From the NCBI GenBank assembly GCA_025351675.1, contig JANXVK010000001.1, forward strand, positions 1 through 26,073: a stretch of DNA of 26,073 nt. The letters are read 5' to 3'. How positions within the stretch are numbered: position 1 is the stretch's first letter; the number at the start of each line of letters is the position of its first letter. The position numbers and the translations under genes were made by a program. Origin of the DNA: Rhizobacter sp. (GTDB lineage Bacteria > Pseudomonadota > Gammaproteobacteria > Burkholderiales > Burkholderiaceae_C). Below are positions 1-18,890 of the stretch, one piece after another. Below the pieces are notes generated by a model that saw nothing but the letters and a program-made list of their open reading frames with translations, was not told the origin of the DNA and searched no databases.

Positions 1-221
1 TGCTGCAGACCGCGATCGACCTCGCGGTCGAGTTGCGCCAGCTCGGGCCGCGCGCGGTCGCGCAGTCGAAGCGGAGCATCTACGTCAGCGAAGAAGCCGA
101 CCTGCGCACCGCGCGTCGCTTCGGCATCGAGGCGCTGTCTATCCTCGTCGGCGGCGACGAATGGAAGGAAGGCATGGGCGCGTTCGCCGAGAAGCGGCCG
201 CCGACATTCGATCGCTGGTGA
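1..221 (+). CDS. Enoyl-CoA hydratase/isomerase (crotonase) family, C-terminal fragment cut by window edge
   Basis: The reading frame is open from base 3 and ends at a TGA at 219-221, giving the last 72 or so residues of a protein whose start lies outside the window. The tail EGMGAFAEKRPPTFDRW is the usual crotonase C-terminus, in which an E-G-x-x-A-F-x-E-K-R-x-P motif closes the trimerisation helix. Crotonases act on acyl-CoA thioesters (hydration, isomerisation, hydrolysis) in the cytoplasm. The active-site region is not in the window, so the reaction cannot be assigned. It is convergent with the minus-strand catabolic operon, and a perfect hairpin separates the two. It could belong to the same pathway, but nothing in the sequence proves this. 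Identification as a crotonase is fairly secure. Confidence 0.85.
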   Translation, partial: LQTAIDLAVELRQLGPRAVAQSKRSIYVSEEADLRTARRFGIEALSILVGGDEWKEGMGAFAEKRPPTFDRW

Positions 222-268: not shown

Positions 269-1180
269 TCACAGGCTGGCGTCGAACGCCTCGATGGCAG
301 CGACGAGGCCCTTCGGGTTGTCGGTCTGCACCGAGTGGCGCGCAGCCGGCACCGTGACGCAGCGTCCGTGCGGCAGCGCCCGCGTGAACCGTTCGGCGTC
401 GGCCGGCGCGAAGATCTCGCTGTCGGCGCCGCGAATCACCAGCGTCGGGCAGGTGATCGCCGAAAGTCGCGCCCACAGCGCCTGGCGCGGCTCCAGGATC
501 TCCGCCGTCGTGCGCTCGCTCAGCGTGCGCGGGTCGTATTTCCAGGTCCAGCGATCGGTGCTTTCCTGCCGCAGGTTGTGCGCCAGCGTCGCCTGCAGCA
601 GTTCACGCGGGCGCCGCGCGCCGAGGCCGGAGAGGCGCGCGGCGGCGTCCGCCGGGCTGGCGAAATAGCGGTATGCGCCCATGCCGCGCATCAGGCGCTC
701 GACCGCCTCGGTGCGGACGTCAGGCCCGACGTCGACCGAGACCAGCGCGCGCAGCTTCGCGGCGTGGTGCGTGGCGTACGCGGTCGCGTTGATGCCGCCC
801 ATCGACATGCCCATCAGCAGCGGCGCGCGCAGAGCCAGCGCATCGATGAAGCCCGCGACGTCGCGCGCATGGTCGTCGAAGTCGTAGGCGCCGTCGGCGG
901 ACCAGTCCGAGTCGCCGTGGCCGCGCTGGTCGAGTGCGAAGCAGCGGTAGCGCCGCGCGAGCAGCAGGCAGCAGGCGTCCCAGGTGTGCGCCGACTGGCC
1001 GCCGCCATGCAGCAGCACGATCGCCGGCGCATCGGCCGGGCCCCAGTCGAGGTAGCGGAAGGCGCCGCCACCGATCTCGATCCGGCGCTCGGTCGGCGGT
1101 AGGACGGCGCCCGCATCGATGTCGGCATGGGCGGCCAGCGCCTCCAGGTAGGCGCCGGCCCCGTGCGCCTGCGGCGTCAT
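269..1180 (-). CDS. Alpha/beta-hydrolase fold protein
   Basis: This 303-aa cytoplasmic protein has the full alpha/beta-hydrolase signature. The oxyanion-hole motif HGGG is near residue 58. The nucleophile elbow G-M-S-M-G places the catalytic serine at 126. The acid is probably Asp253 (RGADSEIF) and the base His282 (ARHSVQ). There is no signal peptide. The frame is open further upstream to 1297, but the ATG at 1180 was chosen because it gives family-typical length and lies 4 bases after the stop of the crotonase gene. It is the last gene of the operon. Relatives hydrolyse esters, C-C bonds in meta-cleavage products, enol-lactones or CoA thioesters, and the sequence does not say which. Next to CoA-ligase and crotonase genes, a thioesterase, lactonase or C-C hydrolase role is inferred. 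Confidence 0.88.
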   Translation of the reverse strand: MTPQAHGAGAYLEALAAHADIDAGAVLPPTERRIEIGGGAFRYLDWGPADAPAIVLLHGGGQSAHTWDACCLLLARRYRCFALDQRGHGDSDWSADGAYDFDDHARDVAGFIDALALRAPLLMGMSMGGINATAYATHHAAKLRALVSVDVGPDVRTEAVERLMRGMGAYRYFASPADAAARLSGLGARRPRELLQATLAHNLRQESTDRWTWKYDPRTLSERTTAEILEPRQALWARLSAITCPTLVIRGADSEIFAPADAERFTRALPHGRCVTVPAARHSVQTDNPKGLVAAIEAFDASL

Positions 1181-1184
1181 CGGC

Positions 1185-1973
1185 TCAGGCTCCGAAGCGC
1201 GGCGGGCGCCGGGCGCGAAATGCCGCCAGGCCTTCGCTGGCGTCGTCGTGCAGCAGGCCGTCGATGACCGACGCCTCCTCCAGCGCGAGGCCGGCATCGA
1301 GCGAGCCTTCGAGGCCCGCGCGCGCGAACCGCTTCATCGTTGCCAGCCCGGGCCGGCTGCGCGTCGCGAGCAGGCGGCAGTAGTCGAGCGCCGCGTCGGC
1401 GAGCGCTTCCGGCGCGACGACATAGTTCACCAGGCCCCATTGCAGCGCGATGTCGGCGTCGATCCAGCGGGCGCTGAAGAACAGATCGAGGGCGCGCCGC
1501 ATGCCGACGATGCGGGGCAGGCGCTGGCTGCCGCCGAATCCCGGCAGCAAGCCGTACTGAGCATGCTGGTCGCCGAAGCGCGCGTCCTGCGCGGCGAAAG
1601 CGACGTCGCAAGCCAGCATCAGCTCGAGCCCGCCGGCCAGCGCCAGGCCCTGGCAGGCGGCGACGATCGGCAGCGGGCTGGCCTCGAAGCGGCGCAAGGC
1701 CCGGTGCGCCGGGCCGATGAAGCGCCGCACCTGCTCGGCATCGCCGCGCAACGCCAGCACTTCGTCGAGGTCGGCGCCGGTGCAGAAATTCTTGCCCTGG
1801 GCCCGCACCAGCACCGCGCGGATGCCGGAGCCGGGTCGCTCGAAATCGTCGAGCGCGGCCTGCAGGCCTTCGGTCAACGCGATCGACAGGCTGTTGAACT
1901 TCTCCGGTCGCGCCAGCTCGACGATGCCGACCGGGCCCGAGCGGCTGACGACGAGGGGCGCGGCTTCGCTCAT
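1185..1973 (-). CDS. Enoyl-CoA hydratase/isomerase (crotonase) family protein with one atypical active-site residue
   Basis: This 262-aa cytoplasmic protein has the crotonase oxyanion-hole segments CTGADL (residues 64-69) and GLALAGGLEL (109-118). The first catalytic glutamate of the hydratase pair is present as Glu117. The second, normally in FGxPE, is His137 (FGDQHAQYG), so water addition as in classic hydratase is doubtful. An isomerase, hydrolase or decarboxylase-type activity is possible. The ATG at 1973 gives the usual length and avoids overlapping the ligase gene, whose stop is 22 bases upstream. An alternative in-frame start at 2027 would overlap that gene by 32 bases. It lies between the acyl-CoA ligase and the hydrolase in one operon, fitting a step on a CoA thioester made by the ligase. 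Confidence 0.9.
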   Translation of the reverse strand: MSEAAPLVVSRSGPVGIVELARPEKFNSLSIALTEGLQAALDDFERPGSGIRAVLVRAQGKNFCTGADLDEVLALRGDAEQVRRFIGPAHRALRRFEASPLPIVAACQGLALAGGLELMLACDVAFAAQDARFGDQHAQYGLLPGFGGSQRLPRIVGMRRALDLFFSARWIDADIALQWGLVNYVVAPEALADAALDYCRLLATRSRPGLATMKRFARAGLEGSLDAGLALEEASVIDGLLHDDASEGLAAFRARRPPRFGA

Positions 1974-1995
1974 CGGATAGTCCGGTGGCAGCGCT

Positions 1996-3639
1996 TCAAC
2001 GCTTGACCTCGATGCCTTCGCGCTCACGATCCCACAGCCCGGCGCGGCGCGCCTGCGCGTCCTGCTTCAGCTTGTACTTCTCGATCTTCTCGCTCGCGGT
2101 CTTCGGCAGCACGTCGATGAAATCGACGAAGCGCGGGACCATGAAATAGCTCATGTGCTCGGCGGCGAAACGCACCACCTCGACATGGCTGAGCGCCTCG
2201 CCGGGCTTCGTGACGACGTAGACCATCACGTCGTCCTCGCTCATCTCGGAGGCGACCGGGATCGCCGCGACCTCGAGGATCGACGGATGACGCGACAGGA
2301 TCAGCTCGACCTCGTAGGCCGAGATGTTCTCGCCGCGGCGGCGGATCGCTTCCTTCTTGCGGTCGACGAAATACAGGTAGCCGTCGGCATCCAGATAGCC
2401 ACGGTCGCCGGTGCGGAACCAGCCGTCGACGAACTCGCGCGCCGTCTCGACCGGCATCTTGTAGTAGCCCTTCATCATCGCGCCGGCGATCAGGGGCCGC
2501 ATCCAGATCTCGCCGACCTCTCCGGCCGGCAAGTCGCGCTGCTCGTCGTCGACGATGCGAAGCTCGCAGGCGCCGCGCGGCGAGCCGGCCGAGCCGGCCT
2601 TCTCGGGCGGGTCGTCGGGCGTGAAGCGGGTCATCGCGAAGTTCTCGGTCATGGCGTAGACGGAGGTCAGCGTGACGCCATAACGCGCCTGCAGCTCGGC
2701 GTAGATTTCTTTCGGCGCCGGCACCGCCATGCACAGGCGCAATCCGGTGGCGCGCTCGTGCGGCCCCGGCGGCAATTTCCAGATGATGTTGGTCATCGCG
2801 CCGAGCGTGTTGAACTGGGTCGCGCCGCTTGCGCGGATGTCGTCCCAGAAACCGCTCGCCGAGAAACGCGGCGCCAGCGCGATCGCCGCGTCGGCCCAGA
2901 GCGCCGCGTAGCAGCTGTACCAGATCGCGTTGCCGTGGAACAGCGGCAGGCAGGTGTAGAGGACGTCGTCCGGCCGGTAACCGTAGTCGAGTGCGAGCGA
3001 GCGGCCGACCGCCTGACCCTGCGAATGCGGGCACATCACGCCCTTCGACGGCCCGGTCGTGCCCGAGGTGTACATGATGAGGTGGGTGTCGTCGTGGCGC
3101 ACCCGGTCGAGCGGCGGCCGCGATGCATCGGCCGACTCCAGCTCGCCCAGCGCACGCGCCGGCGCGGCAGCGCTGCCGACGCCGCAGGCCGCGATCGGCT
3201 TGGGCCCGCGATAGACGTAGCTGCGGACCTTCGGCAACTGCGCGGCGATCGCGGCGACCCGGTCGACCCACTCGTCGTCGACGACGACGCAGCTGGCGTC
3301 CGACTGGTCGATGAAGTAGCGCAGCATGTCGCCCTTCGCCGCGGTGTTCAGCGGCACCGCGACGGCGCCGAGCTTGCCGAGGCCCCAGACGACGCCGAAG
3401 AACTCGAGGCAGTTCGGCAGCATCACCGCGACATGGTCGCCATGCTGGATGCCATGCGCGGCGAAGCCGTTCGCGTAGCGATTGGTCATCACCTCGAGCT
3501 CGCGATAGCTGGTCTTCTTGCCTTGCCAGATCAGGAACGTGCGGTCGCCGGTGCGCTCGGCCTTGTCGGCGAGGATCCGACCGATGGTTCGTTCTTCGAG
3601 TTCGTAGTCGCGCATCGGCCCCACTGCTTTCGTGTTCAC
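1996..3639 (-). CDS. AMP-forming acyl-CoA ligase (ANL superfamily)
   Basis: This 547-aa enzyme activates a carboxylic acid with ATP to an acyl-adenylate and then forms the CoA thioester. The ANL core motifs are all present: the P-loop YTSGTTGPSKG (190-200), YAMTE (328-332), WFRTGD (407-412), the hinge DRKK (426-429) and the C-terminal catalytic lysine, probably Lys518 in PKTASEKIEK. Length is normal for the family and no secretion signal is seen. The GTG at 3639 overlaps the livF stop (GTGA), as at other junctions here. An ATG at 3615 is an alternative giving 539 aa. It lies directly after the Liv-type transporter genes, so it presumably activates the imported acid. Substrate cannot be read from sequence, and the class includes fatty, aromatic and alicyclic acid ligases. 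Confidence 0.92.
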   Translation of the reverse strand: MNTKAVGPMRDYELEERTIGRILADKAERTGDRTFLIWQGKKTSYRELEVMTNRYANGFAAHGIQHGDHVAVMLPNCLEFFGVVWGLGKLGAVAVPLNTAAKGDMLRYFIDQSDASCVVVDDEWVDRVAAIAAQLPKVRSYVYRGPKPIAACGVGSAAAPARALGELESADASRPPLDRVRHDDTHLIMYTSGTTGPSKGVMCPHSQGQAVGRSLALDYGYRPDDVLYTCLPLFHGNAIWYSCYAALWADAAIALAPRFSASGFWDDIRASGATQFNTLGAMTNIIWKLPPGPHERATGLRLCMAVPAPKEIYAELQARYGVTLTSVYAMTENFAMTRFTPDDPPEKAGSAGSPRGACELRIVDDEQRDLPAGEVGEIWMRPLIAGAMMKGYYKMPVETAREFVDGWFRTGDRGYLDADGYLYFVDRKKEAIRRRGENISAYEVELILSRHPSILEVAAIPVASEMSEDDVMVYVVTKPGEALSHVEVVRFAAEHMSYFMVPRFVDFIDVLPKTASEKIEKYKLKQDAQARRAGLWDREREGIEVKR

Positions 3640-4346
3640 TCGCCGAGGTAGGCTTCTGTCAGCTCACGGTGCGAAGCCATCTCCGAGGCCTTGCCTTCGA
3701 GCGCGACGCGGCCCTGCTTCAGCACGTAGATGTAGTCGGCCATCTTCAGCAAGAGGTTGGCGTTCTGCTCGACCACGAGGATCGTCATGCCCTGCTCGCG
3801 CAACGCCTGCAGGTGGCCGAAGACCTGCTTCGTGATCACCGGCGCGAGGCCGAGGCTGACCTCGTCGGCCAGCAGCAGCTTGGGCCGCCCCATCAGCGCG
3901 CGTGCCAGCGCGAGCATCTGCTGCTCGCCACCGCTGAGGGTCGAGCCGTCCTGGTTTTCGCGCCGCGCGAGCGACGGGAACATCTCGAGCATGCGTTTGT
4001 AGTCGGCGGCGATCTCGGCGCTGGCGCGGCGCGAGTGCGCGCCGACCAGCACGTTCTCGCTCACCGTCAGGTCCGGGAAGATGCCCCGGCCCTCGGGCAC
4101 GTGGACGATGCCACGGCGCACGATCTCGTCCGGTTTGACCGGGCCGATCTCGGCACCGCCGAAACGGATCGAACCGGCGCCCGCGCGGACCAGACCGCTG
4201 ATCGCGCGCAGCAGGCTCGTCTTGCCGGCGCCGTTGGCGCCAAGGATGCCGACCAGCTGTCCTTCGGCGACGCGCAGCGAGACATCGCGCAGCGCGGCGA
4301 TCGGACCGTAACTGACCGAAAGGCCCGAGACTTCAAGCATCTTCAT
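3636..4346 (-). CDS. livF: Branched-chain amino acid-type ABC transporter ATPase LivF
   Basis: This 236-aa ABC ATPase matches LivF in length and motif style. Walker A is GANGAGKT (36-43), the signature LSGGEQQ starts at 137, Walker B is LLLADE (157-162), and the switch position carries Gln193 (VEQN), as usual in LivF, instead of histidine. It pairs with LivG on the cytoplasmic face of the LivHM channel and powers import. The start ATG at 4346 overlaps the livG stop by 14 bases. A second ATG at 4340 is also possible. HAAT-family transporters of this type often carry aromatic or other carboxylic acids when encoded with CoA ligases. The name reflects family, not a claim of leucine transport. Confidence 0.93.
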   Translation of the reverse strand: MKMLEVSGLSVSYGPIAALRDVSLRVAEGQLVGILGANGAGKTSLLRAISGLVRAGAGSIRFGGAEIGPVKPDEIVRRGIVHVPEGRGIFPDLTVSENVLVGAHSRRASAEIAADYKRMLEMFPSLARRENQDGSTLSGGEQQMLALARALMGRPKLLLADEVSLGLAPVITKQVFGHLQALREQGMTILVVEQNANLLLKMADYIYVLKQGRVALEGKASEMASHRELTEAYLGE

Positions 4347-5148
4347 CGACCTCGCCGAGGTAGGCCAGCAGCACCCGCGGGTCGTTCAGCACCGCGTCGG
4401 GCGTGCCCTCGGCGATCACCTGTCCCGCATCGAGAACGACCGCGCGATCGCAAAGGCGCCGCACCAGCCCCATGTTGTGCTCCACCAGCAGGATCGAAAG
4501 GCCGCTTTCGGTGCGCAGCGACAGCACGAGGTTCGCGAGGTGTTCGATCTCGCCCTCGTTCAGGCCCGCGATCGGCTCGTCGAGCAGCAGCAACCGGGCG
4601 CCCATCAGGATCACGCGGCCGAGCTCCAGCAGCTTGCGGTGGCCGTACGGGAGGCTGCCGGTCAGCACGTCGAGGCTGCCGGCCAGGCCGATCCGGCGCG
4701 CGACCGCGAGCGCTTCGGCGCGCGCCGCATCTTCGGCGCGGCGCACGCCGGGCAGGCCGATCATTTCGGCAAGGACCGAGTAGCGCAGCCGCCGGTGGCA
4801 GGCGACGAGCAGGTTGTCGAGCACGCTGAGCTCGGCGATGACCTGCGGGTGCTGGAAGACCCGACCGAGCCCCATGTCGACGATCTGGTCGGGGCGGCGC
4901 CCGCTGAGTTCGACGTCGCCGAGCCGGACCGTGCCGGTGGTCGGGCGGGTGATGCCCGAGATACAGTTGAGCAGCGTGCTCTTGCCGGCGCCGTTCGGAC
5001 CGATCAGGCCGACGATCTGCCCCGCGCCGACGCTGAGCGTGACGTTCTGCAGCGCCCGGACGCCGCCGAAGTCGACACCGAGCCCCTGCACGACGAGCGT
5101 GGTGCGCGCCGCGTCCTGTGCGTCGCCGTCGAACGCCGGCAGGCTCAT
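4333..5148 (-). CDS. livG: Branched-chain amino acid-type ABC transporter ATPase LivG
   Basis: This 271-aa ABC ATPase has Walker A GPNGAGKS (50-57), a degenerate signature LPYGHRK (166-172) typical of LivG, Walker B LLLLDEP (186-192) and the H-loop VEHN (His223). The C-terminal extension ending LAYLGE is also LivG-like. The ATG at 5148 overlaps the livM stop as ATGA, although the frame is open far upstream through shadow sequence. It is the partner ATPase of LivF in a heterodimer driving a LivHM channel. Its first 16 residues precede the core domain and look unstructured. Confidence 0.93.
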   Translation of the reverse strand: MSLPAFDGDAQDAARTTLVVQGLGVDFGGVRALQNVTLSVGAGQIVGLIGPNGAGKSTLLNCISGITRPTTGTVRLGDVELSGRRPDQIVDMGLGRVFQHPQVIAELSVLDNLLVACHRRLRYSVLAEMIGLPGVRRAEDAARAEALAVARRIGLAGSLDVLTGSLPYGHRKLLELGRVILMGARLLLLDEPIAGLNEGEIEHLANLVLSLRTESGLSILLVEHNMGLVRRLCDRAVVLDAGQVIAEGTPDAVLNDPRVLLAYLGEVDEDA

Positions 5149-6110
5149 GCGCTCGCCGCCTTGCGCTTGCGGAACAGGCTGATCAGGCCACCCGGCAGCA
5201 GGATCATCACGAGCATCAACGACAGGCCGAAGATCAGGCCCGGAGCGTCCTTGAAGCCGCGCACCGCCTCGGGTATCACGACGTAGAACGCCGCCCCCAG
5301 CAAGGCGCCGCGAACACTGCCCAGGCCGCCGATCACGATCATCGCGAGAAACATGATGGACATGTTGACGGAGAAACTCTCGGGGTTGATGTAGCGGACC
5401 AGGTTCGCATAGAGGCCGCCGGCGACCGCGGTGTAGAACGCGCTCAGCGCAAACGCGACGACCTTGTAGCGGGCGACGTGGATACCGGTGCAGCCGGCCG
5501 CAGCCTCGCTCTCGCGCAGCATGATCAGGGCCCGGCCGGTGCGCCCGCTCGCGAGTTGCGACGCGGCCCACGTTCCGGCCAGCACGGTCGCCCAGATGAC
5601 CCAGGTCATGCGGCTGCCTTCGGCCAGCGGCATGCCGAACAGCGTCGGTGTCGGCACCTGCAGCCCGGCGCCGCCGCCGGTGACCGTGCGCCACTCGAAG
5701 ATGAGTTTCTGCGCGACGATGCCGAAGCCGAGCGTGGCGATCGCGAGGTACAGGTTCTTCAAGCGCAGCGCCGGCAGCGCGATCGCCGCGCCAATCAGCG
5801 TCGCGAGCGCGGCGGCCAGCGGGATCGCGAGCCAGAACGGCAGGCCCAGGCGCTGCGCGAGGATGCCCGATGCGTACGCGCCGATCGCGAAGAAGCCGGC
5901 GTGGCCGAGGCTGGTCTGGCCCGAGAAGCCGATCAGCATGTTGAGGCCGATCGCGACCAGGCTGAAGATGCCGATCAGGTTCAGCAGGTAGACGAAATAG
6001 CCGCCGGCGAACAGGGCCATCGCACCGACGGCGAGCACGGCCGCGCCGACCAGCAGGCGGTCGCGACGCGACGAAGACAGGGCCCGGGAGGGGGATGACG
6101 AGTGGTCCAT
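5145..6110 (-). CDS. livM: Branched-chain amino acid-type ABC transporter permease LivM
   Basis: This 321-aa, highly hydrophobic inner-membrane protein carries the LivM family pattern GLNMLIGFSGQTSLGHAGFF near residues 55-74 and an EAA-like cytoplasmic loop around GRALIMLRESEAAA. About eight to ten membrane segments are visible. The ATG at 6110 follows the livH stop by 3 bases, and its own stop overlaps livG. It forms the translocation pore together with LivH. The charged N-terminus (residues 1-18, serine and arginine rich) is cytoplasmic. Confidence 0.93.
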   Translation of the reverse strand: MDHSSSPSRALSSSRRDRLLVGAAVLAVGAMALFAGGYFVYLLNLIGIFSLVAIGLNMLIGFSGQTSLGHAGFFAIGAYASGILAQRLGLPFWLAIPLAAALATLIGAAIALPALRLKNLYLAIATLGFGIVAQKLIFEWRTVTGGGAGLQVPTPTLFGMPLAEGSRMTWVIWATVLAGTWAASQLASGRTGRALIMLRESEAAAGCTGIHVARYKVVAFALSAFYTAVAGGLYANLVRYINPESFSVNMSIMFLAMIVIGGLGSVRGALLGAAFYVVIPEAVRGFKDAPGLIFGLSLMLVMILLPGGLISLFRKRKAASA

Positions 6111-6113
6111 CGT

Positions 6114-6986
6114 TCAGACCTTCTGCGACTTTACGCGGCCGAAGATGCCGTTCGGCGCGACGATCAGCACGACGATGATCAGCGTGAAAGAAAGTGCCTC
6201 GCTGAACGTTCCCGACACGTAGGCGCCGAGCAGGTTCTCGACGATGCCGAGCAGCAGCCCGCCGACGAAGACCGCGCCGAGGCTCGACAGGCCGCCGAGC
6301 ACCGCGCCGGCGAAGCCCTTGATCAACAGCGTGCCCATCAGGTTGACGTCGAGAAACAGGATCGGCGCCACCAGGATGCCGGCGACGGCGCCGGCCATTG
6401 CGCCCATCGCCCAGGCGAGCGCGAAGGAACGGCTGACGGCGATGCCCATCAGCTTGGCGACCGACTGGTTCTGGCTCGCCGCGCGCAGTGCGATGCCGGC
6501 ACGCGTGTGGCGCAGGATCAGCGTGAACAGAATGATCATCACGACCGAGACCACGATCGTCAGCGCGCTGTCGGGCGAGACGTTGACGCCGAACAGCTGG
6601 AACGGTTGCAGGTTCGCGACCGGGCTCGGCAGCACGTTGGTCTGGTTGCCCCAGATCATCCCGGCGACGCTGTGCAGCGCCAGGCTCAGGCCCAGCGTCG
6701 CGATCACCGCGTTGATGATCGGCGCGCCGAGCAGGGGCCGGATCACGACCTGCTGGACGATCACCCCTTGCACGGCGGCGAAGGCGAGGGTCAGCGGCAG
6801 TACCAGCCACCACGAGAGGCCGTAGGTCGTGAGCAGCGTGTAGGCGACGAAGGTCGCGAACATCGCCATCTCGCCCTGTGCGAAGTTCGGCACCTCGGTC
6901 GCCTGCAGCACCAGCACGATCGCGATGCCGATCAGCGCGTAGAGGCTGCCGGAGGCGAGCCCGCCGATGATCAGTTGCGTGATCAT
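6114..6986 (-). CDS. livH: Branched-chain amino acid-type ABC transporter permease LivH
   Basis: This 290-aa inner-membrane permease starts MITQLIIGGLASGSLYALIG, a standard LivH N-terminus. It contains NFAQGEMAMF, the ALRAASQNQSVAKLMGI coupling loop and AVLGGLSSLGAVFVGG near the C-terminus. About eight membrane helices are apparent. The ATG at 6986 was chosen over longer open frames because it overlaps the stop of the IpdB-like gene as ATGA and matches family length. It is the second channel subunit with LivM. Transport genes directly fused into a string with CoA-transferase-fold genes argue for a dedicated substrate. Confidence 0.93.
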   Translation of the reverse strand: MITQLIIGGLASGSLYALIGIAIVLVLQATEVPNFAQGEMAMFATFVAYTLLTTYGLSWWLVLPLTLAFAAVQGVIVQQVVIRPLLGAPIINAVIATLGLSLALHSVAGMIWGNQTNVLPSPVANLQPFQLFGVNVSPDSALTIVVSVVMIILFTLILRHTRAGIALRAASQNQSVAKLMGIAVSRSFALAWAMGAMAGAVAGILVAPILFLDVNLMGTLLIKGFAGAVLGGLSSLGAVFVGGLLLGIVENLLGAYVSGTFSEALSFTLIIVVLIVAPNGIFGRVKSQKV

Positions 6987-7885
6987 GCCGCCACGTCCTG
7001 GCTCGCCAGCGCGCGCAGGCGTTCGCGCCGCGCCGTGCCGGTCAGGACCTCGAGGAAGCGCAGGCCGCGCGGGTCGATCGTGCGGTCGAGGCGCTCGATT
7101 TCGTCGTCGGTCGGCGGCGTCGACGTGACGAGCTCGGGGGCCCAGTCGAGGTCGAAGCCGGTGGCCTCGGACACTTCGCCGCGGCTCACGCCGGGGTGCA
7201 GGTGCGTCACCCGCAAGCGCCCCGTCGGACCGCTCGCGAGCACCGCGAGGTTGGTGACGACGACCACCGTGCGCGGATTGCCGTCGGCCGTGCCCGGATG
7301 GCCGGCACCGCTGCAGAAATCGAGCGTCGGCACGAACAGCTGGCGCGTGTGGCGCGGTGCGTAGTAGTAGAACCGGCGCGCCGCCGTCGAGGCGTCGGGG
7401 ATCCCGGCCGCACCGGGGAAGCGGACCTTCGGCCGCTCGTGCGGGCCGATGCAAACATTGTTCGTGGCGCCCATCGGATCGATCTGCGCCGGGCGCATGA
7501 ACTCGGTCCAGCGCGGCCGGCCGCCGAGGAAGATCGCCGGCATGTACATGAGATTGATCTGCATGTAGTCGAGCCAGACTTCGGCGCGCGGCACGGTGTC
7601 GAACTCGTCGTGGCCGAGCGTCAGCGTGCGCGTGCCCGACATCAGCGAGTTGCCGTTCGGGCACAGGCTCGTGCAGTTCGGCGCATGGGTGTGCTTGGCG
7701 AGCATGTAGGCGGCGGTCGGCAAGAACGTGCCGATGCCCTCGGCGAGGAAGTCGCCGTCCTCGATCAGGTGCGCCATCGTCACGACCATCTGGTCGGTCT
7801 GGCTGCGTTCCCGCGCCGACAGGCGCAGATCGCTCGCCGGGTGTGCCGAAGTCATGCTCATGCTCATGCTCATGCTCATGCTCAT
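6983..7885 (-). CDS. CoA-transferase family I beta subunit, IpdB-like
   Basis: This protein of about 300 aa has the SugarP/CoA-transferase fold seen in beta subunits. Its C-terminal block (LRVTHLHPGVSRGEVSEATG, then a PTDDEIERL and IDPRGLRFLE sequence) resembles IpdB of the cholesterol-ring-opening enzyme IpdAB as I remember it. The usual transferase active-site motif S-E-N-G reads C-P-N-G here (75-78), so the glutamate that forms the enzyme-CoA ester is absent. That fits a hydrolase or lyase role better than CoA transfer. The N-terminus is a run of Met-Ser repeats produced by a tandem ATGAGC array, so the true start could be any of six ATGs (7885 to 7855). The outermost overlaps the IpdA-like stop as ATGA. 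Family placement is confident; the reaction is inferred. Confidence 0.82.
   Translation of the reverse strand: MSMSMSMSMSMTSAHPASDLRLSARERSQTDQMVVTMAHLIEDGDFLAEGIGTFLPTAAYMLAKHTHAPNCTSLCPNGNSLMSGTRTLTLGHDEFDTVPRAEVWLDYMQINLMYMPAIFLGGRPRWTEFMRPAQIDPMGATNNVCIGPHERPKVRFPGAAGIPDASTAARRFYYYAPRHTRQLFVPTLDFCSGAGHPGTADGNPRTVVVVTNLAVLASGPTGRLRVTHLHPGVSRGEVSEATGFDLDWAPELVTSTPPTDDEIERLDRTIDPRGLRFLEVLTGTARRERLRALASQDVAA
7853..7885 (-). repeat. ATGAGC hexanucleotide tandem array with six in-frame start codons
   Basis: On the minus strand, five perfect ATGAGC units followed by a sixth ATG (then ACT) form the beginning of the IpdB-like gene. Each unit encodes Met-Ser in the downstream frame. Each ATGA also places a TGA in the frame of the upstream IpdA-like gene, whose stop is the first of these. 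Copy-number change would keep the downstream frame, altering only the number of start codons and the N-terminal length. Confidence 0.95.
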
Positions 7886-8712
7886 GCGAAGGCCTCCGCA
7901 GAGGCGTGTCGGGCGGTCGCGTCGGCGAGCCAGTGCGACCATGCCGCCGGGTCGGCCGCGGCGTCGGCGTAGTCGAGCACCGCCGCGACGTCGAGGCGCT
8001 GGTGCGGCACGCACGAGGTCGGCAGACTGCCGCCGGGCGCCTCGACCACGTGGGTCACGAACACGCCGCTCAGCTGCACGCCGCCCATCGCCCGCAGCTC
8101 GGCGGTGTCGACGATGCGCTCGGCGGTGACGATCGTGACGTCGGCGACGGTCGCGAGATGCGGATCGAGCGCGAGCTGGCCCCGCAGGTGGCAGTTGCCG
8201 AAGCGGTCGGCCGCGGTGGCGTGGAGGATCGCGACGTCAACGCGCAGGGCGGGGATCGCGATCAGCGTCGTGCCCGTCAGCGGGCAGGTGAAGGTCTTCA
8301 GGTCGGGGCGCACGCGCAGCAGGTCGGTGCGCGCGAGATCGCCGCGCATCGGCAGGAACGGAACCCGCATGGTCGCCGCCTGCACCGCATAGCTCAGCGT
8401 GTACTCGGTTTCCTCGACCATCTCGAGCGTGCCCTGCTGCACGCCGCGGGTGAAGTGCGGCGCGAAGCCGACGACCTCGAGGCCGACGTAGCAGCTGCGC
8501 ACGCGCCGCACGCAGCCCGCGCCGATCAGCAGGTCGGTTTCGAGCCCGCCGGTGAGCGAGACGAGCTCGAGCCCGGTGCGGCCGGCCGCGGCCAGCGCCA
8601 GCGCGGCGGCGACCGGGCGGCGATACAGCGTCATGCCGCCGAAGGCGACGCGGTGGCCGTCGCGAACCGCGGCAAGCGCTTCGCCCAGCGCAGCGCGCTT
8701 GTCGATGCTCAA
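7882..8712 (-). CDS. CoA-transferase family I alpha subunit, IpdA-like
   Basis: This 276-aa protein has the alpha-subunit pattern VAFGGMTLYRRP near 22-33 (the G-G-x-x-x-x-R-x-P element of the family), then RVPFLPMRGDL (116-126), IAIPALRVDVAILHA (151-165), and a C-terminal VVEAPGGSLPTSC block (222-234). The order and wording resemble IpdA of IpdAB, and Glu103 in EETEY lies where I recall the catalytic glutamate of IpdA. It should pair with the IpdB-like product. The TTG at 8712 overlaps the binding-protein stop (TTGA) in the style of this operon. A GTG at 8745 with an AAGGA six bases upstream is a serious alternative, overlapping the previous gene by 37 bases. The substrate is unknown; a cyclic beta-diketone CoA thioester is an inference from the homology. 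Confidence 0.82.
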   Translation of the reverse strand: MSIDKRAALGEALAAVRDGHRVAFGGMTLYRRPVAAALALAAAGRTGLELVSLTGGLETDLLIGAGCVRRVRSCYVGLEVVGFAPHFTRGVQQGTLEMVEETEYTLSYAVQAATMRVPFLPMRGDLARTDLLRVRPDLKTFTCPLTGTTLIAIPALRVDVAILHATAADRFGNCHLRGQLALDPHLATVADVTIVTAERIVDTAELRAMGGVQLSGVFVTHVVEAPGGSLPTSCVPHQRLDVAAVLDYADAAADPAAWSHWLADATARHASAEAFA

Positions 8713-9875
8713 TTGGCCGCGACCCACTCGGTCACGATCGCCCACTTGCCGTCCTTGGCGCGCATGAAGGCGGCCGACTGGCTGCCGGCATGCTCGCCCG
8801 GCGTGAAGGCCACGGGTCCCATCAAGCCGGTGTTCAGGCCCTTGATCTTCTCGAGCTCGGCGACGATCTTCTCGCTCGTCGGCTCGCCCTGCACGCGCTT
8901 CAGCGCGTCGACGAAGATCATCGCGGCGTTGTAGCCGTGCATGCTGTAGGTCGTCGGCGTGGTCTTCGGCAGGTACTTCTTCTGGCGCGCGAGGAACTCA
9001 GCCACCTGCGGCTTGGTGGAATCCAGCGGCTCCATCACGGCGACCGCGATCGCGCCGTCGACCAGCTGCTGGCCGGCCAGCGTGAAGGTCTGGGGGTCGC
9101 CGAGTGCGCTGTGACCACTGAACTGCGGCTTCCAGCCCATCTTGGCGGCCTCTTTCATGATCAGTGCCGCGTCGCGCGGGATGCCGAAGAACGCCACGTC
9201 TTCCGCGCCGGCCTGGCGAGCCTGCGCGACGACGCCGCTGAAGTTGGTCGAGCCGCGGTCGAACGGCAGCTTGGTGAGCGGCACGCCGTGCTTCTTCATC
9301 CGCGCCTCGAACCCGACCACGGCGTCCTGCCCGAAGTCGTCGTTCTGGTAGATGACCGCGATCTTGCTGTGCTTGAGCTGCGTCACGAGGTAGTCGCCGA
9401 GCAGGCTCGCCTGGACCCGCACTTCCGGCAAGGTCGTGAAGACGTAGCGCTTGACCGGCGTCGTCAGGGTGTGGCTGAACGCGTACGGGGCGAACAGCGG
9501 AACCTTGCGTTCTTCGACGTACGGGATCATCGCCGCGTTGCTGGGGGTACCGACCGGTGCGACCAGCGCGATGACCTTGTCCTGCTCGATCAGCTTCTTG
9601 GCCGAGGCGACCGCGCGCATCGGCTCGTAGCCGTCGTCCTCCGAGATGAAGTCGATCTTGCGGCCGTTGACACCGCCTTGTTCATTGATGTAGTCGAAGT
9701 AGACCTGGACGCCGTCGCGCACGCCCTGCCCGAGCAGAGACAGCGAGCCGGACAGCGGGCCGGTGGAGCCGACCTTGACGTCGGCGGCGAATGCCGACAT
9801 CGGCGCGACCAGCACGGCCGCCGAGGCCAAGACTGCGAGCGCGGCGCTGGCCGCGACCTTCCGGTAAGTATTCAT
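8709..9875 (-). CDS. Periplasmic substrate-binding protein of the Liv/HAAT ABC transporter
   Basis: This 388-aa protein begins with a Sec signal peptide: basic MNTYRK, a hydrophobic core, then cleavage near SAFAA-D (about residues 30-31). It continues with the Peripla_BP_6 pattern VKVGSTGPLSGSLSLLGQG and GRKIDFISEDDGYEP. The mature protein would bind the imported compound in the periplasm and deliver it to LivHM. The ATG at 9875 has a clear ribosome site CAGGAG at 9886-9881, five bases upstream. The frame is open to 10019 but lacks a better start. It is the first gene of the operon, behind the promoter at 9997-10026 with a leader of over 100 bases. No acidic ligand-contact signature allowing substrate prediction was recognised. 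Confidence 0.94.
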   Translation of the reverse strand: MNTYRKVAASAALAVLASAAVLVAPMSAFAADVKVGSTGPLSGSLSLLGQGVRDGVQVYFDYINEQGGVNGRKIDFISEDDGYEPMRAVASAKKLIEQDKVIALVAPVGTPSNAAMIPYVEERKVPLFAPYAFSHTLTTPVKRYVFTTLPEVRVQASLLGDYLVTQLKHSKIAVIYQNDDFGQDAVVGFEARMKKHGVPLTKLPFDRGSTNFSGVVAQARQAGAEDVAFFGIPRDAALIMKEAAKMGWKPQFSGHSALGDPQTFTLAGQQLVDGAIAVAVMEPLDSTKPQVAEFLARQKKYLPKTTPTTYSMHGYNAAMIFVDALKRVQGEPTSEKIVAELEKIKGLNTGLMGPVAFTPGEHAGSQSAAFMRAKDGKWAIVTEWVAAN

Positions 9876-10033: not shown

Positions 10034-10057
10034 ACCGTACGGTCAGTTGTCTGACCG
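10034..10057. promoter_or_regulatory. Composite inverted-repeat operator, probably for the adjacent TetR regulator
   Basis: ACCGTACGGT (10034-10043) is a perfect 10-bp palindrome. Its right part, CGGTCAG (10040-10046 when the overlapping C is counted), is again inverted as CTGACCG (10051-10057) around TTGT. The three ACCG/CGGT half-sites fit the ACCGnnCGGT style of operator known for several TetR regulators of acyl-CoA metabolism. The site lies in the divergent region between the regulator gene and the operon, next to the operon -35. Control of both transcription units by one repressor is inferred. Confidence 0.65.
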
Positions 10058-10145
10058 ATGCTGGATTTCCCTGGGCAGTGGGTACACTAGGCTTTTGCGC
10101 GAAGCGCCGTGTGGCGACGGCGCTCGACTCGAGGAGGACACGACG

Positions 10146-10847
10146 ATGGCGGCGTGGAAAGATGCGGTGCCGGTTCCCAGTGCGCAGTTCGATCGCAAGC
10201 GCGAGGTTCTCCTGCGCGAGGCGGCGGCCTCGTTCAACCGGCGCGGCTACCACGGCACCTCGTTGACCGAGATCGCCAAGAAGCTCGGCGTCAGCAAGGC
10301 AGCGCTCTACACCTACGTGCCGAGCAAGGAGGATCTCCTCTACTACTGCCACGCGGCGGCGATGGACAGTGCGGTCGAAAGCCTGCACAAGGCTCAGGCC
10401 ACGCCGGGTACCGGCCTTCAGCGGCTCACGCTGACGCTGCGCCACTACCTCGAGATGATGCTCGGCCAGGAGGGCGGCTATGTCGTCCTGCTCGAGGAAA
10501 ACGCGATGAAGCCGGCGCACGTGCGGGCGATCGTCAAGCGCCGCGACCAGTTCGAGCAGGGCCTGCGCGAGTTCGTCGTCGAGGGCATCGCTGACGGCAG
10601 CATCGTGCGCTGCGACCCGAAGCTGGCGATCTTCATGATGCTGGGCGCGCTCAACTGGAGCCGCAAGTGGTACCGCCCGAACGGCAGCTGGTCGGGGGCA
10701 CAGATCGCCCACGCGCTGACCGAAATGCTGGAGCGCTCGCTCTCGAGCGCGCCAGCCGCGGCGCTGCTCGAGGATCCGGCCGCCGTCGAGGCGGCCGTGG
10801 AGGTCGAGCCGGCGGAGCTCCCGAAGACCCGCCGCCGGCTCGCCTGA
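10146..10847 (+). CDS. TetR/AcrR-family transcriptional regulator
   Basis: This 233-aa protein has an N-terminal TetR DNA-binding domain (about residues 15-66), with the helix-turn-helix TSLTEIAKKLGVSKAALYTY at 38-57 followed by PSKEDLLYYC. The remaining helical part would bind a ligand, in this context perhaps an acyl-CoA intermediate. The C-terminus (about 200-233) is an Ala/Glu/Val-rich tail ending in TRRRLA. The ATG at 10146 has a strong GAGGAGGA site about seven bases upstream. The frame is open to 10047 but that start lacks a ribosome site and falls inside the operator region. A weak -10-like TACACT is at 10083-10088 with no convincing -35. Divergence from the transport operon and a shared dyad suggest it represses that operon. 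Confidence 0.92.
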   Translation: MAAWKDAVPVPSAQFDRKREVLLREAAASFNRRGYHGTSLTEIAKKLGVSKAALYTYVPSKEDLLYYCHAAAMDSAVESLHKAQATPGTGLQRLTLTLRHYLEMMLGQEGGYVVLLEENAMKPAHVRAIVKRRDQFEQGLREFVVEGIADGSIVRCDPKLAIFMMLGALNWSRKWYRPNGSWSGAQIAHALTEMLERSLSSAPAAALLEDPAAVEAAVEVEPAELPKTRRRLA

Positions 10848-10923
10848 TTGTTACAGCGCAACTGCCATTCAGCCGACTGACCGCCGGGTTGGTTTCGTTT
10901 GCGACGGACCATCCGACCGGCAA

Positions 10924-11174
10924 ATCGGGCTTGGCAGGAATGCCATTGCGGTAGAGGTAGGGGAAGATCGGCTCGTCGTGATCACTGTCGGTGGTGCGAA
11001 CGAAGCGGCGCCGCCGCTTGATCCCCAAGCCATGCTCGGCCATGACACGCGCGACGAGTTTGTGGTTGACGGCATGGTTGCGCGACGCAGTTGGCAGGTG
11101 GCGCGTCGGTATCCGCAGCCTGGCAACTCGTCCTGAATGCCGCTGATCAGTTCGACCAGGTGCTCATCCGTCAA
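10924..11174 (-). mobile_element. IS3-family transposase (OrfB) remnant, frameshifted and truncated at both ends
   Basis: The minus strand encodes a piece of the IS3 OrfB region before the catalytic core. DEHLVELISGIQDELPGCGY followed by RRATCQLRR is read in one frame down to about 11082. From 11079 the continuation NHAVNHKLVARVMAEHGLG, then IKRRRRFVRTTDSDHDEPIFP and YRNGIPAKPD, is read in another frame. The match to the standard G-Y-G-Y-R-R and T-T-D-S-D-H-x-x-P-I-F-P signature is clear. The DDE catalytic domain, OrfA and terminal repeats are missing, so it cannot move itself. It sits directly against the broken PAS gene and probably caused or accompanied that break. Confidence 0.8.
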
Positions 11175-11507
11175 CCGAACGCCTGCGGCTGACGCTCGGC
11201 AATGTCGACGAAGGTCACGACCGCGCCCTGCACCGCCCCATCGCCCGATTTCGCATCGGGAATCGGGTTCGCCGTCGCCGTGCGTGTGGTGGATCGGGTC
11301 GTGCATGTTCTTGCCGAGCACCTGATCGGTCGTCCAACCCGGCGTCTGCGCGTCGGCACGGTTGATGCTGGTGCAGCGGTCGTCGGCGTCGATGCCGAAG
11401 AGGCCTTCGCCGGTCGATTCGAGCAGCAGCTGCGGACGCTGCGTCCACGCCCGCGCGGGCTCTTGCGCCGTAGCCGGCGGAATCAGCGGAGCGGTGGCGG
11501 GCGACAT
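11174..11507 (-). pseudogene. Truncated PAS-domain signalling gene
   Basis: An ATG at 11507 opens a frame that reads a PAS domain: LLESTGEGLFGIDADDRCTS, INRADAQTPGWTTDQVLGKN and MHDPIHHTH (about 11429-11280). A deletion or frameshift near 11270 follows, and the end of the same domain, GAVQGAVVTFVDIAERQ, is read in a second frame to a stop at 11171. The middle of the PAS domain is shortened and everything downstream (kinase, cyclase or other output) is absent, replaced by the IS3 fragment. It starts 70 bases after the stop of the hybrid kinase on the same strand, so it may once have been its operon partner. No function is expected now. Confidence 0.72.
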
Positions 11508-11577
11508 GCGTCGCAGCGTGCACTCGCCATGCCACCTTGCCTTCCCGGGCCCCGGCACTGGGCGGGTGCAAGATCTG

Positions 11578-14082
11578 TCAAGGAGCTTGCCCCGTCGCGG
11601 CACCGGGCGACTGGAACCGGCGCGCGAGTTCCGCCTTCACTTTCCGCAGGTCGAGCGGTTTCGTCCAGTAGGCATCCATGCCCGCTTCAAGCGCAGTGCG
11701 AATCTGTTCCGGCAACGCATCGGCACTGACTGCGATCACCGGGATTCCTGCCGTGGCGGCGTCGCTGCGCAGCGAGCGCAACACGCTGAGCCCGTCTTGA
11801 TCCGGAAGGCTCATGTCGAGCAAGATCAGGTCAGGAAGTTGCGTGCCGGCAACGCGCAAGCCCTCTGCCCCATCCCGCGCGACCAGCAGCCGTGGGCCGA
11901 CATCGGGCAGCGATTCAAAAATGGCCTGCATCAGCAACGCGTTGACGGGCTCGTCTTCGATGTACAGAACGATCGCCGGGCCCCGACCTCCACTCGGATT
12001 CGGCAGGTGGAAGTCACCAAAAGCCACGTCGTCGGCAGCTTCGACGGCAGGGCGGCCGTCGACTGGCAGCGCGACCGTGAAGGTCGTCCCTTGACCGGGC
12101 ACAGACATGACGCCGATCGTTCCGCCCATGGCCCACGCCAGCTTCTGGCTGATCGACAACCCCAAGCCCGTCCCTTTCGCGTTGACTCGACCGTACCGGA
12201 GTCGGGTGAAGGGCTCGAACAGCGAAGCCAAGTCTTCTGGCGCAATGCCCGGTCCGGTGTCGATGATGGCGAGCGTGACCTGCGCCGCAGATGCGTTGTG
12301 CCTCAGCTCCAGGCGCACGACGCCGCCCGAGTGAGAGAACTTCACTGCGTTCCCGATCAGGTTGAACAGCAGTTGTCTGACGGCCCGCGTATCGGCGAGC
12401 ACGGTCGGAAGCCGCGGTTCGACGTGGGCTTCGAGCGCGATGCCGTGCTGCCGCGCGAGCGGCTCAAGAAGCGCCATGCAGCGGTCGACCAAGGGCGCCA
12501 GCGAGACCGGGTGAACCGTCAGGTTCAGGCGACCTGCGTCCATGCTGGACAAGTCCAGCATGTCGTTGACAAGCGTCAAAAGATGGGCACCCGCGGTTTC
12601 GATGTGAAGTACCGAACTCAGCATGGACTCACCGGGCTGCGACGGCCCCGCGATACGCAGCATTTGGGCGAAGCCGAGAATGGCGTTGAGTGGCGTGCGC
12701 AGTTCGTGGCTGACGCGCGACATGAACTCGCTGCGAACTTCGACCGCCTTCTCGGCGTTGACTTGCGCGAGGGTCAGCTGCTGCAATTGGCGGGCCGCAA
12801 GGATCTGCTCGGTCACGTCCGTCAACAGCCCATGCCAGAGCACGCCACCACCTTCACCGGCCCTGGGCTCGGCATGAACCATCAGCGTGCGTTCACCCGC
12901 GCGCGGCAGCACCATCCGAAAAGTCTGCTGCCACAAGTCGAGCCGCAGCGCAGACTCGCGAAGCGAATGCATCACGCGGCGGACGTCGGCGCGGTGGCAG
13001 CGAGCCAGTACGATCTTTGCATTCGCGAGGACGCGGCTGGTGCTCAGTTCGCACACGTCGTTGACGCGGCTGCTTGCGAACGGAAAGCTCATGCGCCCGC
13101 CACGATCAAGCCGCAACTGGAAGATCACGCCCGGCACTTGCGCAGAAAGATCGGCAAGCAAGGTCGCCGCCTCTCGCTGCGCGCTGTCGGCAGCCATGCT
13201 TGCAGTCATGTCGCGCGTGATGCCGCGGTAGCCGTTCCACCGACCCGACCGGTCGCGCCGGCACACCGCCGAATGCGACAGATAGCGCTGTTTGCCAGCG
13301 ATCTCGCACTGCACGAGGGCGCGCGCGAATCCGAGTTTCTTCTCGAACAGCCGGTGCAGCGTGGTGGGCGGGTTCGGCAAATCGGCGGGGGCATCGATGA
13401 CCAAGCCGTCGGCCATCGGCTGTCCGATCAACCATGGCTCGGGCAGGGCCGGGTGATTGCCGTAGGCGCAAGACATCCAGACGATGCGGTGCCGCTCATC
13501 CGTTTCCCACAACCAGTCGCCGGCCACCATGGCGAATTCGGTCAGGCGATGTTGCTGCTCGGCAGACACCGCGCGCTTTCGGCGCTCGGTGAGCATCGCC
13601 GAAGCCGCAGCGCCCAAGTCTTGCAGCGCTTCGCGCTCGGCAGCTTGGAGTTCGCGTGGTTTGGTGTCGACGACACACAAGGTGCCGATGCGGACGCCAT
13701 CTACCGTCAAGGGCTGACCTGCGTAGAAGCGGATGTTCGGGCGCCCGGCGACCAACGGGTTGGTGGCAAAACGCAGATCGGCCGCGGCATCGCGTACCTC
13801 CATCAGGCCAGGCGTCCGGATGGCTTCGCTGCAAAACGACAGGTCGCGTGGCGCCTGCGTTTCTTCAAGGCCCACGCGAGCCTTGAACCACTGGCGCTCG
13901 CCATCGACCAAGCTGAGCAGCGCGATGGGGCAGCCGGTCAACGTGGCGGCGGCATGCGCGAGCGCGTCGAATCCGGGCTCGGGCTCGGTGTCAAGCACGC
14001 CCAACTCGGCAAGAAGCGAGAGGCGCTGCTGTTCTTCGAGATCCACTTCTCGGCGGCGCGCCGATGTCTCGTCAAAGATCAC
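11578..14082 (-). CDS. Soluble hybrid histidine kinase, GAF-PAS-PAS-HisKA-HATPase-receiver
   Basis: This 834-aa protein has an N-terminal GAF domain (about 20-170, with LGVLDTEPEPGFDAL and the GTLCVVD end). Two PAS-like regions follow (about 178-295 and 305-430), then a short coiled segment. The HisKA domain carries phospho-acceptor His459 in VSHELRTPLNAILGF. The ATPase domain has N-box Asn578, G1 DTGPG (608-612) and G2 GTGLGL (637-642). The C-terminal receiver has the acidic pair Glu709/Asp710, phospho-acceptor Asp756 (LILLDMSLPDQDG) and Lys808. All catalytic residues are present. No membrane helix or signal peptide is visible, so it senses a cytoplasmic cue. The start is a GTG at 14082; no ATG exists between it and the preceding in-frame stop. 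No HPt or response-regulator gene is adjacent. Confidence 0.92.
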   Translation of the reverse strand: MIFDETSARRREVDLEEQQRLSLLAELGVLDTEPEPGFDALAHAAATLTGCPIALLSLVDGERQWFKARVGLEETQAPRDLSFCSEAIRTPGLMEVRDAAADLRFATNPLVAGRPNIRFYAGQPLTVDGVRIGTLCVVDTKPRELQAAEREALQDLGAAASAMLTERRKRAVSAEQQHRLTEFAMVAGDWLWETDERHRIVWMSCAYGNHPALPEPWLIGQPMADGLVIDAPADLPNPPTTLHRLFEKKLGFARALVQCEIAGKQRYLSHSAVCRRDRSGRWNGYRGITRDMTASMAADSAQREAATLLADLSAQVPGVIFQLRLDRGGRMSFPFASSRVNDVCELSTSRVLANAKIVLARCHRADVRRVMHSLRESALRLDLWQQTFRMVLPRAGERTLMVHAEPRAGEGGGVLWHGLLTDVTEQILAARQLQQLTLAQVNAEKAVEVRSEFMSRVSHELRTPLNAILGFAQMLRIAGPSQPGESMLSSVLHIETAGAHLLTLVNDMLDLSSMDAGRLNLTVHPVSLAPLVDRCMALLEPLARQHGIALEAHVEPRLPTVLADTRAVRQLLFNLIGNAVKFSHSGGVVRLELRHNASAAQVTLAIIDTGPGIAPEDLASLFEPFTRLRYGRVNAKGTGLGLSISQKLAWAMGGTIGVMSVPGQGTTFTVALPVDGRPAVEAADDVAFGDFHLPNPSGGRGPAIVLYIEDEPVNALLMQAIFESLPDVGPRLLVARDGAEGLRVAGTQLPDLILLDMSLPDQDGLSVLRSLRSDAATAGIPVIAVSADALPEQIRTALEAGMDAYWTKPLDLRKVKAELARRFQSPGAATGQAP

Positions 14083-17016: not shown

Positions 17017-17039
17017 CGGCGATGATCCCACGCAAAGCT

Positions 17040-17057
17040 GTGCAAACCGGCTTGCAC
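17040..17057. promoter_or_regulatory. 18-bp near-perfect dyad operator in the Nramp/ABC divergent region
   Basis: GTGCAAACCGGCTTGCAC is palindromic apart from one mismatched pair. The centre is CG, and the GTGCAA/TTGCAC arms recall LacI/PurR-type operators, though no such regulator is in the window. It lies 23 bases upstream of the Nramp ATG and 80 bases upstream of the permease ATG, so one bound dimer could affect both genes. Confidence 0.6.
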
Positions 17058-17070
17058 TCGCTGCAGGGCC

Positions 17071-17088
17071 GTCATCGGCAGCGGTGAC
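17071..17088. promoter_or_regulatory. Second, imperfect dyad in the Nramp/ABC divergent region
   Basis: GTCATCGGCAGCGGTGAC has symmetric GTCA/TGAC ends and inner CG/CG matches. It is weaker than the dyad 13 bases to its left. It may be a second regulator site for the ABC genes or chance. Confidence 0.35.
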
Positions 17089-17105
17089 AATCGCGTGTCC
17101 CGCCA

Positions 17106-17121: not shown

Positions 17122-17137
17122 CCACCCAATTGCCCCG

Positions 17138-18865: not shown

Positions 18866-18890
18866 TGACCAGAGACTGAAAGACTGACCC

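Follow-up and report, generated by a model that had tools for sequence, protein, structure and literature searches.

IpdAB, the hydrolase that cleaves the last remaining ring in cholesterol breakdown, belongs to a group of two-subunit proteins with the CoA_trans fold, in which it is joined by the AibAB decarboxylase and by glutaconate CoA-transferase (GCT, subunits GctA and GctB) and the PcaIJ-type pairs. The excerpted text of the IpdAB report (PMC5380842) states that IpdB of Rhodococcus jostii RHA1 has Gly57 at the place of the transferase Glu, and that IpdAB, without this residue, gave no transfer of coenzyme A (CoA) among three short acyl-CoAs and acids. Here we describe a ten-gene operon in a stretch of 26,073 nucleotides from the soil bacterium Rhizobacter sp. 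(contig JANXVK010000001.1 of assembly GCA_025351675.1; hereafter the window), whose second and third genes code for another pair of such subunits, A and B. The genes run head to tail on the minus strand from 9875, the start codon of the first, to 269, the end of the last (open reading frame calls and Pfam scan), in the order substrate-binding protein (SBP), A, B, LivH, LivM, LivG, LivF, acyl-CoA ligase, crotonase and α/β hydrolase, so that the co-linear and mostly overlapping layout given in a preliminary description of this DNA is borne out in full. The operon is part of an accessory catabolic island that is real and conserved, and a catabolic role of this island is likely.

Subunits A (7882–8745, minus strand, start TTG 8712 or GTG 8745; CoA_trans 4e-23) and B (6983–7885, minus strand; CoA_trans 7e-8) both have IpdAB chains as their best sequence match, with AibAB nearly equal, and at this level the IpdA/IpdB-like label of the preliminary description is right. 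For A, the E-values are 2.5e-29 (IpdA, 6con_A), 1.2e-28 (6co6), 4e-29 (AibA) and 1.8e-20 (GctA); for B, they are 3.8e-18 (IpdB, 6con_B), 3.5e-17 to 1.2e-16 (AibB) and 1.3e-14 (GctB). Structure models of the two subunits were built from 32 and 33 picked rows, and in a Foldseek search the predicted fold of A (predicted local distance difference test, pLDDT, 88) was closest to IpdAB E105A (5.7e-24) and next to AibA (8.1e-24).

The residues at two alignment columns are more telling than overall similarity. The printed stretches of PDB entries 6co6 and 6coj differ at the Glu of the REMDE motif, and 6coj is titled IpdAB E105A with COCHEA-CoA, which together fix the Glu105 column in the alignment. 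Glu114 of subunit A (numbered from GTG 8745) aligns with IpdA Glu105 and is Glu in all 120 homologues listed, the best 120 of 309 in a set in which scoring was confined to the 7999 candidates with most words in common. Elsewhere this column holds Gly (AibA), Gln (GctA) or His (two PcaI-type proteins). In subunit B, the column of the GCT catalytic Glu is occupied by Pro76 of the motif L-C75-P76-N-G, and LCPNG is found in 119 of the best 120 of 398 homologues, the remaining one being gapped there. The same combination, Glu in A and no Glu in B, was seen in four of four plasmid-borne IpdAB-like pairs whose immediate neighbours include crotonase genes and one for a nitronate monooxygenase (2-nitropropane dioxygenase), and in two of these records some genes carry steroid annotations; the opposite, transferase signature was seen in all three GCT/PcaIJ references and in seven of seven further Pca-like pairs. 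Judged by these residues, the AB pair is no ordinary CoA-transferase.

Maximum-likelihood trees were computed for 35 rows (A) and 34 rows (B), with a program warning of long branches. The clade made of the window type plus L024/L017 is supported at 96/88 in the A tree and at 100/100 in the B tree, and this supported clade of its own marks the AB pair, on sequence grounds, as an enzyme distinct from IpdAB itself. In the best trees the pair also stands apart from GCT/PcaIJ, but the tests do not reject a joint grouping (approximately unbiased test, p-AU 0.354 for A and 0.171 for B). The clustering with ordinary CoA-transferases, which the preliminary description had named as evidence that would overturn its proposal, is thus spoken against by the residues and not by the trees.

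Further pairs of CoA_trans subunits with Glu in A and none in B were noted at L018, L021 and L038, of which the first two adjoin genes for LacI, acetolactate synthase and an ABC transporter, which in L018 bears a sugar-type annotation, and the third is unannotated. A third signature, Cys at the Glu105 position, is present in four of four coenzyme M-linked pairs (L019, L020, L022 and L036), which sit beside phosphosulfolactate synthase genes; the three actinobacterial records among them also carry monooxygenases of alkene/methane type.

The gene string recurs across genera but is rare. A scan of named genomes, which reaches close relatives only, gave five loci (L005–L009), in two Polaromonas metagenome-assembled genomes (MAGs), which are the nearest, a Variovorax MAG, Paraburkholderia xenovorans LB400 and Variovorax sp. 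IB41 (L009). SBP-A-B-LivH is present in all five, and SBP-A-B-LivHMGF-ligase in the four that reach far enough (L006–L009), L005 ending after LivH; the crotonase and the hydrolase follow the ligase in two of these four (L006 and L007), and a TetR gene keeps its place beside the operon in L005–L009. A more distant version, in G586, has the order TetR, SBP, LivH, LivM, ligase, LivF, A, B, hydrolase on one strand, reordered and at 33–57% identity, with no LivG and no crotonase named among the open reading frames picked. Conservation of the string outside this genome, on which the preliminary description had also staked its proposal, is thus found. With B as the query, 7 of 399 genomes of the family match (the host's own included), five of them at 46% identity or more (again with the own genome) and two at 31–34%; five other listed genomes of the same genus gave no match, and across the order the only match among 399 genomes was the host's own. 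A search with a B alignment (E ≤ 1e-30) matched 3 of 369 genomes at class level and 23 of 398 at phylum level, and these score 108–137 bits apart from the own genome at 508 bits; eleven of the 22 matches other than the own one were read at the residues, and all eleven are unlike the window type. The G603 pair is identical to that of the L009 strain and therefore not independent. A plasmid of Simplicispira suum carries LivF-like, A, B, hydrolase and short-chain dehydrogenase/reductase genes, and the transposase genes a few kb further on suggest mobility.

The conserved island extends past the left end of the window. Positions 1–298 align to L006 17904–17602, and positions 3–900 of another contig of the same genome, C100 (6610 bp), align to L006 17946–18838, so that on the L006 map the start of C100 (about L006 17944) lies some 40 bp from the start of the window, inside a second, canonical crotonase gene (ECH2). 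The window holds the 3' end of ECH2 (1–221, plus strand), convergent with the operon and placed by alignment to L006, whose ECH2 stop gives the end at 221; the copies in L006 and L007 keep both catalytic Glu residues. C100 contributes the rest of ECH2, two thiolase-like genes, at 83.6% and 95% identity to their L006 counterparts, and a ChsH2-like gene for which tblastn gives 72% with IB41. Its carboxyltransferase is 93% identical to that of LB400, and the contig ends within a biotin carboxylase gene, most of which it holds (82%). L062, L063 and L064 show the same succession of thiolase-like, ChsH2-like, carboxyltransferase and biotin carboxylase genes, the ChsH2-like partner being recognized by tblastn in C100 and by Pfam in L062 and L064. 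In Polaromonas (L062) and in Variovorax IB41 a MaoC gene and an HpcH/CitE-type gene come next; LB400 has a CitE-type lyase, matches the IB41 MaoC at 79% and has an acyl-CoA dehydrogenase nearby. The IB41 lyase as a query gave matches of 54–59% in the four other named genomes and of 37% in G586. The LB400 lyase is nearest RipC and CitE, and the IB41 MaoC nearest RipB, all below cut-off. The LB400 carboxyltransferase scores 629 bits with AccD1, which works in the leucine route through (R)-3-hydroxy-3-methylglutaryl-CoA ((R)-HMG-CoA), 617 bits with methylcrotonyl-CoA carboxylase and 447 bits with geranyl-CoA carboxylase. Neither of the C100 thiolase-like proteins has the nucleophile Cys. In the excerpted description of CtSal (PMC12329534), that protein has Gly at the thiolase nucleophile position and carries out retro-aldol cleavage, with an essential Cys in its YDCY motif, where Ltp2 has YDHF. 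The first of the two C100 proteins has no motif of the YDHF/YDCY type. The described precedent for the lyase is Rv2498c, which according to the excerpt of PMC6689899 cleaves both (R)-HMG-CoA and (S)-citramalyl-CoA.

These gene contents suggest a scheme in which the operon would be the front end of the island. The HAAT-type ABC transporter may import an organic acid, and the AMP-forming ligase, of a family that makes CoA thioesters, would convert it to its CoA ester. The crotonases and accessory dehydrogenases might then prepare a CoA thioester of β-dicarbonyl type, in which the AB pair, acting through Glu114, the counterpart of IpdA Glu105, would hydrolyse a C-C bond as IpdAB does, possibly opening a ring. 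The product could pass to a complex of the thiolase-like proteins, devoid of the thiolase nucleophile, with the ChsH2-like protein, for retro-aldol cleavage, and a module of carboxylase, MaoC hydratase and CitE-type lyase, resembling the (R)-HMG-CoA route, would remove a β-methyl block. Until one of the CoA thioesters of the pathway is present, the operon is probably kept repressed by the TetR protein. As a whole, this scheme, in which a methyl-branched, possibly alicyclic acid is taken up, activated with CoA and cleaved hydrolytically at a C-C bond, has in our estimate an even chance of being right, and C-C hydrolysis by the AB pair, taken alone, is proposed with moderate confidence. The likeliest substrate is an isoprenoid-like acid with a methyl branch, which may be alicyclic, and our confidence in it is low: the branched, isoprenoid-like character is proposed because of the AccD1/methylcrotonyl-like carboxyltransferase, and a cyclic one only because of the likeness to IpdAB. 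The cyclic or branched acid of the preliminary description thus gains backing in its second half, with the cyclic form and the opening of a ring still conjectural. The fullest version of the proposal, that the pair is a non-steroid C-C (ring-opening) hydrolase of the CoA-transferase fold, working in a Burkholderiales pathway for a methyl-branched alicyclic or isoprenoid acid together with a thiolase-like aldolase and an (R)-HMG-CoA-type module, is tentative, and we regard it as possible but doubtful.

A number of observations weigh against C-C hydrolysis by the AB pair or against the scheme around it. A residue signature read from alignments is not an activity, and Glu in A with no Glu in B is not specific for ring cleavage, being found also in pairs of Azospirillum, Shinella and Microvirga and in L028, to which roles are not assigned. 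The IpdB rows have a Glu one place past the transferase column, where B of the window has none, and Cys75 of B, one place before Pro76, is nearly invariant and could be a nucleophile. The predicted fold of B (pLDDT 84.5) fits AibB (2e-18) and GctB (1e-17) before IpdB (8e-17); with A closest to IpdAB and B to AibB, the fold alone offers no choice between hydrolase, decarboxylase and transferase. In both trees the IpdAB rows form a 100/100 clade of their own without the window rows, and only the best A tree groups the window with IpdA, with weak support (50/79). Five other deep groupings were tested and none was rejected (p-AU 0.354, 0.39, 0.473, 0.171 and 0.104), so that a sister position to IpdAB is neither shown nor excluded. 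The operon contains no oxygenase and no dedicated dehydrogenase, and in LB400 and in Variovorax IB41 the ligase is not followed by the hydrolase and crotonase genes, the LB400 crotonase being upstream on the other strand. The top match of the LB400 carboxyltransferase, at 636 bits, is a chain labelled propionyl-CoA carboxylase, other chains of that name scoring at most 264 bits. The second thiolase-like protein has YDPF, with Pro replacing the Ltp2 His and the essential Cys of CtSal, which makes its role as an aldolase doubtful. Finally, the host's own genome, a draft in 675 contigs that is 82% complete, yielded no MaoC and only a 39% match to the lyase. The interpretation in the preliminary description is therefore supported only in part, the pair falling outside the steroid IpdAB clade, B fitting the AibB and GctB structures slightly better than IpdB, and the crotonase residues being the reverse of those of EchA20 (see below).

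If the AB pair does not cleave a C-C bond by hydrolysis, it may be a plain acyl-CoA thioester hydrolase, or a CoA-transferase that uses another nucleophile, such as Cys75 of B, and that frees or shuttles CoA in a branched-acid pathway. The fold is that of class I transferases, Cys75 is nearly invariant, the trees do not reject the GCT/PcaIJ link, and the title of one PDB entry, CtfAB E46D active site mutant hydrolase, suggests that the fold can hydrolyse. Still, the class I catalytic Glu is absent, a transferase is not needed for activation because the operon already has an ATP-dependent ligase, and the invariant Glu114 of A is left without explanation, so that we consider this reading unlikely. 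Lower still in our estimate is decarboxylation of a methylglutaconyl-like CoA ester in the manner of AibAB. AibA and AibB are nearly as close to the pair as IpdAB by sequence, AibB is the best structural match for B, and the neighbouring carboxyltransferase scores best with propionyl, AccD1 and methylcrotonyl chains; however, the Glu105 column is Gly in AibA and the transferase-Glu column holds Cys56 in AibB, where the window has Glu and Pro, and it would be futile for one island to carry both a carboxylase and a decarboxylase acting on one and the same bond. The idea that the island is a variant of leucine or isovalerate catabolism, importing a branched short-chain acid and leaving AB a minor role, draws on the methylcrotonyl-type affinities of the carboxyltransferase that C100 shares with LB400 (93%), on the MaoC and CitE-type lyase genes of the relatives and on the acyl-CoA dehydrogenase near the LB400 island, but it is equally improbable, as it leaves AB, two crotonases, the hydrolase and the ChsH2-like and thiolase-like proteins unexplained, and five further carboxyltransferase matches in the own genome, some of them partial, could serve leucine.

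The transporter and ligase genes of the operon, all on the minus strand, would serve uptake and activation. The SBP, a periplasmic protein of HAAT type (8709–9875), matches Peripla_BP_6 at 1.3e-77, with 4kv7 and 3lop as best PDB chains. The permeases are of LivH type (6114–6986; BPD_transp_2, PF02653, 6e-27; PRK10740 below cut-off) and LivM type (5145–6110; PF02653, 3.6e-40), and the ATPases of LivG type (4333–5148, start ATG 5148; ABC_tran, PF00005, and PF12399) and LivF type (3636–4346; PF00005, 2e-31; PRK11614 below cut-off). The acyl-CoA ligase (1996–3639; AMP-binding, 4e-70) has PRK06155 as its nearest NCBIfam model, below cut-off at 510 of 722 bits. Overlaps of 4 bp occur at the junctions A/B, B/LivH, LivM/LivG and LivF/ligase; LivG and LivF overlap by 14 bp, and LivH and LivM are 3 bp apart. 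SBP and A overlap by 4 bp if A starts at TTG 8712, or by 37 bp with GTG 8745, and the ligase and the crotonase overlap by 32 bp with the crotonase start at GTG 2027, or are 22 bp apart with ATG 1973; the crotonase and the hydrolase are spaced by 4 bp, given a hydrolase start at ATG 1180. At the start of the B gene (7850–7885) five copies of ATGAGC are followed by ATGACT (MSMSMSMSMSMT), a hexanucleotide repeat that offers several in-frame start codons and whose copy number could vary without a frameshift.

In the crotonase of the operon (1185–2027, start ATG 1973 or GTG 2027; ECH_1, 2.4e-46), the first catalytic Glu is conserved (GGLEL) and the second is replaced by His (FGDQHAQYG). EchA20-like proteins show the reverse, the first Glu being absent and the second (LPE) present, and the window crotonase is therefore not an EchA20. 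The α/β hydrolase (269–1297, start ATG 1180 likelier than 1297; Abhydrolase_1, 5e-29; best PDB chains 6wym and 3p2m, named possible hydrolase) carries a Ser (GMSMG), Asp, His set by alignment; assignment to the HsaD type was dropped, the similarity being weak (55 of the 400 bits of the HsaD model). The TetR-family regulator (TetR_C_24; 10047–10847, plus strand, divergent from the operon) probably has its true start later, and was discarded as a KstR2 orthologue, as 4w1u (6.8e-7) ranks behind 22 other TetR-type sequences. An inverted repeat at 10040–10057, CGGTCAG-ACAA-CTGACCG, is a candidate TetR operator; none of the seven relatives examined has it in this form. No IpdC-like or EchA20-like gene is present in the operon, and L030–L032 and L037 have both beside their pair. 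One query each for IpdC and HsaC came back empty in the own genome, at its 82% completeness and with no positive control; within these limits a role in steroid catabolism is unlikely, with no IpdC, HsaC or EchA20-type crotonase found, and the earlier remark that other steroid genes are missing holds for the window and, beyond it, for these two queries.

Beside the operon, 10869–14082 code for a hybrid sensor with GAF, histidine kinase and receiver domains and for a short PAS-domain frame. Further along are an ABC permease in which BPD_transp_1 is matched twice, with an ATPase carrying an AAA_assoc_C domain after it and adjoined on the other strand by an Nramp-family transporter (15730–20207), an alkylation-repair cluster on the minus strand (22082–25109) of Ada (a methyltransferase with an AraC domain), Oxygenase-NA (PF09859) and a 2-oxoglutarate-Fe(II) oxygenase (PF13532), and a protein with a PEP-CTERM motif (25380–26072).

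A limited search of the open-access literature, partly aimed at single enzymes and routes, found no description of this gene set, which is not proof of absence. Proteins of the CoA_trans fold are routinely named CoA-transferases; to judge from the two-residue signature, there is a conserved set among them to which this name does not apply, and if so, many annotations would be corrected. For a branched or alicyclic acid, the island hints at a route not yet described, and its presence in the laboratory strain P. xenovorans LB400 means that the substrate can be sought directly there.

Among the systems to which the locus can be compared, the Mrc/Bad genes of the monoterpene island of Castellaniella defragrans are comparable as a betaproteobacterial island for the activation and ring opening of an alicyclic acid; the excerpted account (PMC4109377) assigns ring opening, as a proposal, to MrcE, a BadI homologue, and mentions no AB pair. 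The pairs of GCT/PcaIJ type have the same fold and the same family, PF01144, but their catalytic Glu is in B, and A has Gln or His, an arrangement that is reversed in the window pair. AibAB, with the same fold, a similar sequence score and likewise no transferase Glu, differs in having Gly in AibA for Glu114 of the window and Cys56 in AibB for Pro76, the window Cys being one place earlier; Cys56, the residue exchanged in variants 5n00–5n03, is presumably catalytic. The (R)-HMG-CoA leucine route with Rv2498c has in common an AccD1/methylcrotonyl-like carboxyltransferase and, in the islands of relatives, a MaoC hydratase and a CitE-type lyase, and differs in that the module of the window is tied to an operon with AB and a HAAT transporter and to ChsH2-like and thiolase-like proteins. 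IpdAB of Mycobacterium tuberculosis and R. jostii RHA1 shares the fold, the best match for A, the Glu at the position of IpdA Glu105 and the lack of a Glu at the transferase column of B; a ligase and a crotonase accompany the window pair in its operon, and FadD3 and EchA20 act in the steroid pathway of IpdAB according to the excerpt of PMC5380842. It differs in that IpdC and HsaC were not found with the window pair, which has instead a HAAT transporter, a crotonase unlike EchA20 and LCPNG in B, and which forms a separate clade, with about 30–33% identity to IpdAB in A and 24–26% in B by structure alignment.

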